A stretch of 64,000 bases of DNA from Verrucomicrobiia bacterium (lineage in GTDB: Bacteria; Verrucomicrobiota; Verrucomicrobiia; Limisphaerales; Fontisphaeraceae), in contig JAOAIT010000061.1 of NCBI GenBank assembly GCA_026414565.1, positions 124,001-188,000 on the forward strand. The letters are read 5' to 3'. The first letter of the stretch is position 1. Every line of letters starts with the position of its first letter. The position numbers and the translations under genes were made by a program. Shown here piece after piece: positions 19,546 to 57,735 of the stretch. The notes beneath the pieces were generated by a model. It worked only from the letters and a program-made list of their open reading frames with translations. It was not told where the DNA came from and did not search any database.

Positions 19546-20475
19546 ATGCAGCGCAAAATCCTGGTCATCCGCGGCGGCGCCATTGGGGATTTCATTCTGA
19601 CCCTGCCGGTGCTGGCGGCCTTGCGCGCCCGTTTTCCGCAACCGCCGCTGGAGGTGCTGGGCTACCCGCACATTGCCAGCCTGGCCCAATGGGGGGGGCT
19701 GGCCGATGCGGTGCGGCCGATTGAAAGCCGGGCCATGGCCGGTTTTTTTGTGCGCGGGGGGCGGTTGCAACTGGAGTTGTGCGAGTATTTTGCCTCGTGC
19801 AGCCTGATTGTCTCCTACCTTTACGATCCGGATGGGATTTTTCAGGACAACGTGCAGAGCTGCACCAGCGCGCAGTTTATTGCGGGGCCGCATCGGCCCA
19901 ACGAAACGGCGGGCATACATGCCACGGAGGTCTTTCTCAAGCCTTTGGAGGCGCTGGACATCATCGGGGCGGATGGTGTGCCGCGGTTGGGGCAGGCCGG
20001 TCCGGGCGCTCTGGCGCCCGGTGCGGAAGGATGCCTGCGCGTGGCGTTGCATCCCGGCAGCGGCAGCGAGCGAAAGAACTGGCCGGCGCGGCACTGGCAA
20101 ACGCTGGTGCAACAACTGCTCAGCCAGACGCCATGGCATCTCACGCTGGTGGGGGGTGAGGCCGAGGGTGACCGGCTGGATCAACTGGGGGCCGTGGCGG
20201 CGGGGGAGCGGTTGACGTTGCTGCGCAACCGGCCCTTGACGGAAGTCGCCGAGCATCTGCGCGGCTGCCGGTTGTTTGTGGGGCATGATTCGGGCATCAC
20301 CCATTTGGCGGCGGCCTTGGGCGTGCCCTCGCTGGTGTTGTGGGGGCCGAGTGTGGAGGCCGTGTGGCGTCCCCGGGGCAGCCATGTGCATTTGGTGCGC
20401 CATCCACAGGGACTGCCCGCTTTGCCACCTAATACGGTCTGGGAAGCCGTGCGAAGGATGCTGGCGGCGGCTTAG
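19546..20475 (+). CDS. glycosyltransferase family 9 (heptosyltransferase-like)
   Basis: A 309-residue cytoplasmic or peripheral glycosyltransferase of the ADP-heptose:LPS heptosyltransferase superfamily. The N-terminus KILVIRGGAIGDFILTLPVL is the classic GT9 start. The nucleotide-sugar side carries LHPGSGSERKNWP and the motif GHDSGITHLAAALGVPSLVLWGPS. Its natural sugar donor is not deducible. It is co-transcribed with the upstream membrane protein. Confidence 0.92.
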   Translation: MQRKILVIRGGAIGDFILTLPVLAALRARFPQPPLEVLGYPHIASLAQWGGLADAVRPIESRAMAGFFVRGGRLQLELCEYFASCSLIVSYLYDPDGIFQDNVQSCTSAQFIAGPHRPNETAGIHATEVFLKPLEALDIIGADGVPRLGQAGPGALAPGAEGCLRVALHPGSGSERKNWPARHWQTLVQQLLSQTPWHLTLVGGEAEGDRLDQLGAVAAGERLTLLRNRPLTEVAEHLRGCRLFVGHDSGITHLAAALGVPSLVLWGPSVEAVWRPRGSHVHLVRHPQGLPALPPNTVWEAVRRMLAAA

Positions 20476-44448: not shown

Positions 44449-45147
44449 ATGGCCTCCCCCCCGCCCACCCCTGAACTGTTGCATGCCTTGGGACGGTTGG
44501 TGCGGGGGTTGACCGCCATTTTCTGGGGGCTGCCCGCCGCCCTGCTGGTGGGGGTGCATACGGGATTGAAGACCCGGCTGGATTTGCGTCTTTTTGACGC
44601 ATTTTTGCCGCCGGCCGCCACCGGGCTGCTGCTTTACGGCGTCTGGATGCTGGCCGCCTTTCATCCGCAGGAGACCATCTGGATGCGGGCCGTGGATCGC
44701 TCCCGGGCTCTGGCCCTGGTCCTGACCGGCTTTTCGCCTTTTCTCTACTGGCACGTGCTGCTGCCGGAGGTGCCGGCCTACTCGGCATGTGTGTGGTTTC
44801 TGGCGGTGTTTGGGGTGTTGTTTCTGTTTCATTTCAACCATCTGCTGCAGCGGCTGGTGGCCATGCTGCCGGCCGAGGCCCTGCGCCAGGAGACGATGAC
44901 CTTCACCCGCCTCAATCAGGTGATCCTGGCCGGCCTGCCCCTGGCGGTGGTGCTGAGCCATGCCCTGCCGCAACTGCTGGCCGGCACGGACTCCGCCGCG
45001 CGGCTGGCGCGGGCGTGGCAGCAATTTGGGCCGGCGCAGGAGTGGCTGTTTTTGTTGTTCACCCTGCTGCCGGTGGCCACCACCATGGCGATGGTGTGGA
45101 AAATCAAGGAGGCGGTTCTGCATAGCCTGTTTTCCGCGCCCCGTTGA
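44449..45147 (+). CDS. polytopic membrane protein, unknown
   Basis: A 232-residue protein starting 11 nt after speA, so probably on the same transcript. It has about six TM helices with Leu-rich segments (WGLPAALLVGVHTG, TGLLLYGVWMLAAF, FLAVFGVLFLFHF, VILAGLPLAVVLSHAL, and a last one before KIKEAVLHSLF). I see no known motif. The tight linkage to the arginine decarboxylase is the only functional hint. Confidence 0.78.
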   Translation: MASPPPTPELLHALGRLVRGLTAIFWGLPAALLVGVHTGLKTRLDLRLFDAFLPPAATGLLLYGVWMLAAFHPQETIWMRAVDRSRALALVLTGFSPFLYWHVLLPEVPAYSACVWFLAVFGVLFLFHFNHLLQRLVAMLPAEALRQETMTFTRLNQVILAGLPLAVVLSHALPQLLAGTDSAARLARAWQQFGPAQEWLFLLFTLLPVATTMAMVWKIKEAVLHSLFSAPR

Positions 45148-45298
45148 AATCCCGGGCAGAGGCGGCGCCAGGGGCCAAGGGCAGGGGCACTTTTTTTCCA
45201 TCCCGGCTTGACCCCCAAGGGGAGATTTGGACAATGCCGGGCATCAGCCCACCGCCGCCTGCGCAAGCCGCAGCGGGTGTGTGGCAGTGAAAGACGTT

Positions 45299-46768
45299 AT
45301 GCACGCGAATACTTCAGCAGACGCGCCCCGCACCGGCGGCACATTTGACGGGGTCACCCGCTATCACTGGCTGCTGGTCATCATTGCCTCCTGCGGCTGG
45401 TTGTTTGATTGCATGGACCAGCGATTGTTCATCCTGGCCCGGCAGCCGGCGCTGACCGAGCTGGCGGCGCACGAGTACACGCAAAAGCGCCATTGCAGCG
45501 CCTGCGGCGTGCCCATCAAGAATCAGGCCAAGACAGACCGTTGCGGCGAGTGCCAGGACAAAGGCCGCACGGCCGCCACGCCTGCGGCGCCTGCGCCGGA
45601 CAAGTTGAAACAGGTCATTGCGCGGGACGCCAAAAATTATGGCGGCTGGGCCACCACGTGCATGATCATTGGGTGGGCCACGGGCGGCATTTTCTTTGGC
45701 ATGATGAGCGACAAATGGGGCCGGGTGAAAACGATGGTGGCCACCCTGCTGGTGTATTCCGGATTCACCGGTTTATCGGGTCTGGCCCAGACGTGGGAGC
45801 AGTTCATGGTCTTCCGCTTTCTGGTGGGCCTGGGCGTGGGCGGCATGTTTGGCGCCGCCACCACGCTGGTGGCGGAGAGTGTGCCCACCAATTTCCGTTC
45901 GGTGGCGCTGGGGTCCTTGCAGGCGTTGTCCGCCACCGGCAACATGACCGGCTCGGGCATCAGCCTGCTCATTCCGCCGGGGGCGGAAAATTTCGTGGGT
46001 CATTATGCGGGCTGGCGGGTGCTGTTTTTTGTGGGCATTCTGCCGGCCCTGCTGGCCATTCCCATGATTTTCATCCTCAAGGAGCCCGAGGCGTGGAAAA
46101 AGGCCAAGGAAGCCGCCCGGCAGGGGCAGAAGGACAAGCAGGTGGGGTCCCCCCTGGAGATGCTCAAACATCCGCGGTGGCGGCGGCACGCGCTCATCGG
46201 GCTGCTGCTGGGGGTTTCGGGCATGATTGGGCTGTGGGGGATCGGCTTTTTCTCGCCGGAATTGATCAGCGAGGCTTTGAAGGGGGATTATCCGGCGCAG
46301 GTGGTGGACCGGGTGCGCGGGCTGGGGACGTTGTTGCAGGATGCCGGCGCCTTTGTGGGGATGATGGTGTTTACGGCGCTGGCCTCGCGCTGGGGACGCA
46401 AGCCGGCGTTTCTGGTCTCCTTCCTGACGTGTTTGGTGGTGGTGGCGTTTGTGTTCAATTTCCTGCGCAAACCCACGGACGCCTACTGGATGCTGCCGCT
46501 GCTGGGGTTTGCCACGTTGTCGGTGTTTGCCGGCTACTCGATTTACTTCCCCGAATTATTTCCCACCCGCCTGCGGGGCACGGGGGTGGGGTTCTGCTAT
46601 AACACGGTGCGCTATCTGGCGGCGCCGGCGCCGGCGTTGTTTGGTTATCTGACCACGTTGATGGATTTCCGGCTGGTGGCCACCCTGATGTGCAGCGTGT
46701 TTCTGATTGGGTTGGTGGCTTTGATCTGGGCGCCGGAAACCAAGGACAAACCCCTGCCGGAGGATTGA
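45299..46768 (+). CDS. MFS transporter with Cys4 insert in first loop
   Basis: A 489-residue major facilitator, sugar/acid-symporter-like, about 12 TM helices. MFS signatures include GMMSDKWGRVK in the loop after TM2 and the repeat in the second half (ASRWGRK). FPELFPTRLRGTGVG is the motif common to metabolite:H+ symporters. Unusually, the loop between TM1 and TM2 carries C66-x2-C69-x12-C82-x2-C85, a zinc-ribbon-like arrangement, predicted to lie on the periplasmic side. A weak promoter-like pair (TTGACC at 45208, GACAAT at 45230, 16-nt spacer) precedes it. The ATG at 45299 is chosen; a GTG 12 nt upstream is possible. Confidence 0.9.
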   Translation: MHANTSADAPRTGGTFDGVTRYHWLLVIIASCGWLFDCMDQRLFILARQPALTELAAHEYTQKRHCSACGVPIKNQAKTDRCGECQDKGRTAATPAAPAPDKLKQVIARDAKNYGGWATTCMIIGWATGGIFFGMMSDKWGRVKTMVATLLVYSGFTGLSGLAQTWEQFMVFRFLVGLGVGGMFGAATTLVAESVPTNFRSVALGSLQALSATGNMTGSGISLLIPPGAENFVGHYAGWRVLFFVGILPALLAIPMIFILKEPEAWKKAKEAARQGQKDKQVGSPLEMLKHPRWRRHALIGLLLGVSGMIGLWGIGFFSPELISEALKGDYPAQVVDRVRGLGTLLQDAGAFVGMMVFTALASRWGRKPAFLVSFLTCLVVVAFVFNFLRKPTDAYWMLPLLGFATLSVFAGYSIYFPELFPTRLRGTGVGFCYNTVRYLAAPAPALFGYLTTLMDFRLVATLMCSVFLIGLVALIWAPETKDKPLPED

Positions 46769-56555: not shown

Positions 56556-57440
56556 ATGGAAGCATGGCTGGAAACTGCGGCGGGCGACCGCATTCCTGTG
56601 CAGGGACCACTCTCCATCGGGCGCGCCTCGCAAAACGCCCTTTCCCTGCCGGGAGACCCGCGGGTAAGCCGGCGCCATGCCCTCATCCATCCGCAGGGGG
56701 CGGGGGAATTTTGGATCGTGGATTTGGGGAGCTCCAACGGGGTTTTCATCAACGGCCGGCGGCTGCGGCAGCCGGTGCAACTGCACGATCACGACAAAAT
56801 CGAAATTGGCTCCACCACCTTCACCTTCCTGCAATCCGAAGCGCCCCTGTTTCCGGGCGACAGTCCGGCACCCCGCACCACCAATTATGTGACCCTCAAG
56901 GACATCAAAACCGAGGAGTTGTGGCTGCTGGTGGCGGACATCGTGGGCTTTACCCCGCTGAGCCAAAGCGTGCCGGGCGACGAGCTGGCCAGACTGGTGG
57001 GGCGGTGGATATGCGCCTGCAAAGAGGCCATTGAGCAGCAGGATGGGGTGATCAACAAATACCTGGGCGATGGTTTTCTGGCTTACTGGCCGCAGGCCGG
57101 GGTGCCGCCGGAAAAAGTGCGGCAAACATTGGAAACCCTGCGCGCGCTCCAACAGCAGACCCGCGAATTTTCCTTCCGGGTCGTCATTCACCGGGGCCGG
57201 ATCACGGTGGACAATGCCGTGTCCCTGGGCGAAAACAGTCTCATCGGCCCCGATGTGAACTATGTTTTCCGCATGGAGAAAGTGGCCAGTCAGCTCAAAG
57301 AACTGTGCCTTTTGAGCGCCCCGGCCGCCGCCTTGCTTTACCCGGCCGCCGAATGCCGCAGTGTGGGGCGGCATCCCCTGCATGGTTTTGAGGGAGACTT
57401 TGAATTTTTTGCGCCCCCCGGCCCGCCGCCCCCGGCTTGA
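56556..57440 (+). CDS. FHA-domain nucleotide cyclase
   Basis: A 294-residue cytoplasmic protein. The N-terminal FHA domain keeps its phosphothreonine-binding residues (SIGRAS, R23; SRRH 38-41; SSNG, N61). The C-terminal class III cyclase domain keeps both metal Asp (D128 in VADIVGFT and D172 in YLGDGF), the base-contact Lys (K168) and the transition-state Asn/Arg pair (N235, R239). It should be catalytically competent, unlike the cyclase fused to a receiver at 13531-15207. I place the start at 56556; there is no strong ribosome site. Whether the product is cAMP or cGMP is not known. Confidence 0.88.
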   Translation: MEAWLETAAGDRIPVQGPLSIGRASQNALSLPGDPRVSRRHALIHPQGAGEFWIVDLGSSNGVFINGRRLRQPVQLHDHDKIEIGSTTFTFLQSEAPLFPGDSPAPRTTNYVTLKDIKTEELWLLVADIVGFTPLSQSVPGDELARLVGRWICACKEAIEQQDGVINKYLGDGFLAYWPQAGVPPEKVRQTLETLRALQQQTREFSFRVVIHRGRITVDNAVSLGENSLIGPDVNYVFRMEKVASQLKELCLLSAPAAALLYPAAECRSVGRHPLHGFEGDFEFFAPPGPPPPA

Positions 57441-57489
57441 CGCGTCCGGCGCGTTGCCGGAAATTGCCCTGAGTGACGGGGTAGAGTAT

Positions 57490-57735
57490 ATGCCACTGTA
57501 TGAATACGAGCTTTGTGAGGGCGACTGCCAGATTTGCGGCGGCCGCTTCACTTTGCGCCGTTCGGCCAGCGCGCCGCCGGTAACGCATTGTCCCCTCTGC
57601 CGCAAACCGGTGCGCAAGGTGCTGAGCCAGTTCAGCACGCCGCACAAGCTCAAGCCGTTGTCCATCAGCGACGCCAAAAAGGCTGGTTTCACCGTGTACA
57701 AGCGACTGGGGAAGGGCGAGTACGAGCGGCAGTGA
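57490..57735 (+). CDS. FmdB-family zinc ribbon protein
   Basis: An 81-residue protein beginning MPLYEYELCEGDCQICGG, the classic FmdB start. CQIC and CPLC (CHCPLC region) provide the Cys4 zinc ribbon. The Lys-rich C-terminal part is typical. These proteins are putative regulators of unknown role. It is 49 nt after the FHA-cyclase stop. Confidence 0.88.
   Translation: MPLYEYELCEGDCQICGGRFTLRRSASAPPVTHCPLCRKPVRKVLSQFSTPHKLKPLSISDAKKAGFTVYKRLGKGEYERQ

Follow-up and report, generated by a model that had tools for sequence, protein, structure and literature searches.

A verrucomicrobial MFS transporter with an apparently genus-restricted four-cysteine insert, a putative zinc knuckle, in its first periplasmic loop

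The closest known structural relatives of the transporter described here are the SLC22 carriers (OCT1, OCT3, OAT1, and URAT1) and SV2A and SV2B. The report on OCT1 describes three disulfides that stabilize the extracellular domain located between TM1 and TM2, and it considers a role of this domain in extracellular gating unlikely (PMC10567722). The nearest named groups are the aromatic acid:H+ symporters (TIGR00895) and the sialate:H+ symporters (TIGR00891). The carrier studied here is encoded in a stretch of 64,000 nucleotides from a Verrucomicrobiia genome (the window) and contains four cysteines in an enlarged TM1-TM2 loop. The features of the gene are given below.

45299..46768, + strand: MFS transporter gene, 489 amino acids (Pfam MFS_1 and Sugar_tr; AlphaFold2)
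45359..45484, + strand: helix of residues 21-62, TM1 with an extension to the knuckle edge, family motif around W34 and D37 (AlphaFold2)
45458..45628, + strand: residues 54-110, enlarged TM1-TM2 loop region (W34-to-C121 span)
45494..45553, + strand: Cys4 knuckle C66-x2-C69-x12-C82-x2-C85 (sequence; kept in the orthologue; both structure models)
45563..45598, + strand: residues 89-100, Ala/Pro-rich insert tail (species comparison; pLDDT of residues 91-100)
45596..45718, + strand: helix of residues 100-140, TM2 extended on its periplasmic side and leading into motif A (GMMSDKWGR) (AlphaFold2)

Residues were numbered from the ATG at 45299. The frame is open from a TTG at 45227 through the stop at 46768. 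Both species of the genus have an in-frame TTG at an equivalent position, so that translation may begin at TTG 45227 instead of the ATG. Most searches were conducted with 45302-46768, that is, with an N-terminus one residue short.

The assignment to the MFS, already proposed in a sequence-only reading of this DNA, was borne out by the profile match (MFS_1, PF07690, E 3e-39, 135.3 bits, cut-off 33.4; Sugar_tr, E 8.1e-33), the predicted 12-TM fold, and motif A after TM2. The top NCBIfam model was TIGR00895 (E 1.2e-47), whose curated cut-off of 418.55 lies far above the score obtained (162.7 bits); the same holds for TIGR00891 (E 1.1e-31, 110.3 bits, cut-off 552.9). Both models match the core of the protein, starting only downstream of the insert. 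Because the nearest named groups score so far under their cut-offs, the substrate is not given by them. Judged from these scores, the protein belongs to a family related to but separate from TIGR00895 and TIGR00891, and H+ symport is suggested by distant relatives only. The relatives found here stem mostly from Verrucomicrobiota, Planctomycetota, and Acidobacteriota records. In a fold search with the whole model, SV2A (E 1.6e-14) and OCT3 (E 2.9e-13) were the nearest solved structures; by sequence, SV2B (E 1.8e-7), GlcP (E 3.6e-7), and OCT1 (E 3.1e-6) were among the nearest.

The TM1-TM2 loop is enlarged by about 46 residues. The span from W34 to C121 comprises 88 residues in the window protein versus 38-47 residues in 57 of the 66 rows of an alignment, which is a non-redundant choice of relatives from a one-genome-per-species collection together with order-wide loci. 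W34 and D37 are invariant in this alignment, as are the motif A residues G134, D138, G141, and R142. Motif A of MFS proteins faces the cytoplasm. Since motif A follows TM2, the TM1-TM2 loop and its cysteines should be periplasmic, in agreement with the placement in the first periplasmic loop made earlier. The span exceeds 50 residues in nine of the 66 rows, including the genus pair, which indicates that this site tolerates insertions; the other seven long loops are without the Cys4 motif. In the pseudo-symmetry of the MFS fold, TM1-TM2 corresponds to TM7-TM8. In the 47 proteins, among them the query, with both anchors recognized (34 of 81 rows without an anchor were dropped), the TM7-TM8 stretch is 137-152 residues long in 10 versus 23-33 residues in the other 37. 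The long stretch was found in L050, L051, L053-L056, L059, L060, L063, and L064, and a similar one was seen by eye in L091 (G002). Long versions of both corresponding periplasmic loops thus seem to occur in this family.

Nucleotides 45494-45553 encode CSACGVPIKNQAKTDRCGEC with C66, C69, C82, and C85. Re-reading of bases and frame showed that the motif had been located correctly at the outset. The frame is also intact in the orthologue of a second genome of the genus (L086, a single contig of 4.7 Mb), and an assembly error is therefore an unlikely source of the motif. The pattern C..C.{8,18}C..C occurred in 3 of 200,000 57-mers drawn at random from the composition of the remaining protein and in 209 of 200,000 shuffles of the insert itself. 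In the six frames of the window, the loose pattern matched five times, within four open stretches of at least 80 codons, the MFS gene included; of the three other stretches, at least two look by eye like spurious frames. The pattern alone is therefore weak, and it is the orthologue that lends it credibility. The spurious-looking frames of this G+C-rich genome carry the pattern at 45056-45130 and 20387-20461 of the window, which cautions against reliance on CxxC pairs by themselves. A second Cys4 motif, CQICGGRFTLRRSASAPPVTHCPLC, was found at 57526-57600 in the open stretch 57316-57735. The small protein with this motif may start with MPLYEYELCEGDCQIC and is reminiscent of FmdB-type zinc-ribbon proteins.

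Among the 66 aligned proteins, the four cysteines are present in two, the window protein and that of the sister species, and gapped in 64. The sister protein is 90% identical and keeps all four; in the other genus of the family, the gene copy is without the insert. None of the best 80 of 92 confirmed relatives in the one-genome-per-species collection contains the Cys4 motif. The loop of L042, a gene with a broken frame on a metagenome-assembled contig, was read in its own frame and is of ordinary length without Cys4. In a whole-protein search, 280 of 293 genomes of the order gave some MFS match at E ≤ 0.001. A DNA pattern for FDCMDQ followed by two CxxC pairs matched two genomes in a set of 320 from the order and, among 288 genomes drawn across the phylum, in the window's own genome only, the sister species lying outside this draw; as the pattern requires an exact FDCMDQ, carriers with an altered motif would escape it. 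In a plasmid collection, relatives were present in 240 records; none of them reached 60% identity, and they added nothing. In the genomes searched, the insert is thus restricted to one genus. The initial view that a cysteine knuckle at this loop is uncommon is supported, and the motif is not a family trait; conservation in homologues extends to the close sister protein and stops short of the other 64 rows and the family's other genus.

In a tree calculated with the loop cut out, the genus pair was supported with 100/99 and L001, which has a shorter insert without the cysteines, joined the pair with 100/99, values from a bootstrap that is not fully settled. The copy from the family's other genus was placed elsewhere, in an unresolved fork, and vertical descent need not account for the whole history of the MFS gene. 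For the insert, a single gain within the genus, perhaps in a loop that was already longer, is the simplest account. Searching the genomes G000, G001, and G002 for a donor of the knuckle with the 44-residue insert as query gave eight places at E ≤ 10. The best candidate beyond the insert itself and its orthologue (E 0.28) lies in a frame with a stop and was discarded.

The two species differ by a dS of about 0.7. dN/dS was 0.064 outside residues 54-110, 0.29 within them, and 0.42 across residues 62-90. The reading frame of the insert is thus under constraint. In the knuckle (residues 62-90), 11 of 29 codons differ nonsynonymously, and all four cysteines and their spacing are kept; the chance probability of this is p = 0.13, so that the constraint on the cysteines seen in two species is only suggestive. 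In the insert tail (residues 89-100), the species differ in length by three residues, and no indel was found inside the knuckle. These data bear on the view that the loop is a neutral or nearly neutral lineage-specific extension, in which the Cys4 pattern is present without a folded site or function. Such an extension would fit the occurrence in one genus as far as searched, the high dN/dS of the knuckle compared with the rest of the protein, the p-value for the cysteines, and the loose patterns in spurious-looking frames. However, cysteines and spacing have been retained at this dS, the knuckle is free of indels while the tail has one, and the random expectation for the pattern is low. A neutral extension is hence regarded as unlikely.

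The full protein was modeled with AlphaFold2 from the 66-row alignment (mean pLDDT 92.0, pTM 0.89). The knuckle was predicted with bridge residues 65 and 72 and a helix at 83-88; the block-mean pLDDT values across residues 61-90 (77, 72, and 83) are below those of the core, and block 91-100 reached 61. The isolated 71-residue insert, predicted from two rows, gave a poor model (pLDDT 63) with the same local layout. The models contain no metal. With the isolated insert model, Foldseek returned 17 matches at E ≤ 10, none of them at E ≤ 0.001 (best E 2.2). Several ribosomal and RING-protein chains are among these insignificant neighbors; ribosomal and RING proteins often contain Cys-bound zinc. 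By VIA-align, one of 19 chains reached Z ≥ 2 (a 30S ribosomal chain; Z 2.2, rmsd 2.8, 41 residues). A phmmer search of the PDB with the insert alone gave a single match at E ≤ 10 (eL37, E 5.5). The ribosomal protein uS14 has a zinc motif, and a likeness of the insert to it was dropped because the genome's own uS14 is without the four cysteines. The structure predictions thus returned the knuckle-plus-helix layout twice and no significant fold match.

Two CxxC pairs at zinc-ribbon spacing are found in both insert-bearing proteins (2/2). In Pfam searches, for which the window insert was submitted as three overlapping queries, it matched DZR with E 0.0042 (17.6 bits, cut-off 27.3) and DZR_2 with 15.7 bits (cut-off 27); the sister insert matched DZR_2 with E 0.003 (17.8 bits, cut-off 27) and DZR with 17.1 bits (cut-off 27.3). 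Of ten shuffles with the cysteines fixed, three matched DZR_2 (best E 0.0074) and three had no match at E ≤ 1. The best shuffle reached E 0.0039 with a cytochrome family, so that one in ten surpassed the window insert; the value of the sister insert was better than that of all ten. Membership in the Pfam zinc-ribbon families DZR, DZR_2, and Zn_ribbon_3 was rejected, as all matches are under the cut-offs and not clearly better than the shuffles. The term "zinc ribbon" is therefore applied here for the cysteine spacing and the predicted shape and does not denote family membership.

We propose that a conventional 12-helix MFS carrier of an uncharacterized family gained an extra segment in the ancestor of the genus, inserted at the insertion-tolerant periplasmic TM1-TM2 loop. 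The segment would fold into a single Cys4 knuckle with a CxxC turn followed by a second CxxC that opens a short helix. The knuckle would most likely hold one structural Zn2+ and cap, from the periplasmic side, the hairpin formed by the lengthened TM1 and TM2 helices. We estimate the probability of this reading at roughly 0.47. For zinc speak the 'CxxCG' spacing, the turn-bridge-helix layout in the full-length and isolated-insert models, the retention of the four cysteines and their spacing amid the changes in the knuckle, the weak ribosomal and RING-protein neighbors, the insertion tolerance of the site, and the lack of a DsbA family match in the three genomes searched. Against it speak the metal-free models, the poor quality of the isolated one, the insignificance of all fold matches of the insert, Pfam values not clearly better than those of shuffles, the chance probability of the cysteine retention (p = 0.13), and the possibility that the thiols are oxidized, given their periplasmic position and the presence of a VKOR protein. 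The role of such a site would be structural or stabilizing rather than catalytic or sensory.

Oxidized thiols are the core of the main alternative, in which the four cysteines form two periplasmic disulfides, made by the VKOR/thioredoxin-like protein, that brace the loop without any metal. The genes concerned are as follows.

L140:517-1965 (G000:C53): VKOR-domain protein, window genome
L139 (G001): VKOR-domain protein, sister genome

Both genomes of the genus encode a VKOR (2/2), and no match was obtained in the one genome of the family's other genus (0/1); three genomes from a single family underlie this correlation. The protein of the window genome has a C-terminal thioredoxin-like stretch (Pfam matches under cut-off) with a TCHHCH motif that includes CHHC. 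No DsbA family match was found in the three genomes searched, two of the genus and one of the other genus (3/3). Periplasmic thiol oxidation in the genus is likely, and because VKOR is present in both carriers, a disulfide-bonded knuckle seriously rivals zinc. The structural neighbors of the whole model, SV2 and SLC22 carriers, point the same way, and the TM1-TM2 extracellular domain of OCT1 is disulfide-braced, but its bonds are described as long-range and not of the CxxC type (PMC10567722). Moreover, both cysteine pairs of the insert are tight CxxC pairs in a knuckle-and-helix layout in the models, and phmmer with the insert alone retrieved no SLC22 chain. Disulfides are considered possible, with about one chance in three. 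Of the original suggestion of a metal-binding or redox knuckle, zinc thus stands as plausible; significant family or fold matches are lacking and disulfides compete with it.

The sequence-only reading had also suggested that the insert may gate transport or sense metal, with Zn2+ binding or CxxC oxidation at the periplasmic mouth altering transport. The insert adjoins the periplasmic end of TM1/TM2 and contains CxxC pairs; other support is absent. The gene neighborhood offers nothing that ties the MFS gene to metal handling. Downstream lies an ABC-2 family membrane protein (PF06182), and upstream a 232-residue ORF without Pfam match, preceded by an arginine-decarboxylase-like ORF (by eye). In the sister genome, an ORF of equal length and closely similar sequence follows downstream, and the upstream neighbor is a different one, a DEAD-box-like helicase ORF (both by eye). 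No metal-handling gene was recognized among the neighbors, the insert was not found outside the genus, and it evolves faster than the remaining protein. Among the papers found on MFS proteins with zinc ribbons or with periplasmic or extracellular zinc, none appeared to describe such control of a bacterial MFS carrier. The gating proposal is hence unsupported, and a newly gained zinc or redox cap that senses periplasmic metal or the oxidation state there and thereby gates the uptake of a substrate is very improbable.

The Cys4 insert is a genuine but minor elaboration of a known transporter fold, specific to one lineage as far as searched. Its importance is modest and its functional role putative. 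It exemplifies the gain of a small Cys4 module by a transporter at a site that tolerates insertions, and the Cys4-free relatives provide natural controls. With single zinc ribbons and Cys4 knuckles, the insert shares the two CxxC pairs and the ribbon-like spacing; in contrast to the zinc ribbons of DZR, DZR_2, and Zn_ribbon_3, it sits in an extracytoplasmic loop. If zinc is bound, this would be an unusual extracytoplasmic Cys4 site. If the cysteines form disulfides, the insert would parallel, in a bacterium, the cysteine-braced domain between TM1 and TM2 of the SLC22 carriers. The OCT1 domain likewise contains cysteines and lies between TM1 and TM2, with long-range disulfides (PMC10567722), whereas the window insert is a compact C-x2-C-x12-C-x2-C motif, seen in a single bacterial genus, whose sequence gave no match to that domain.
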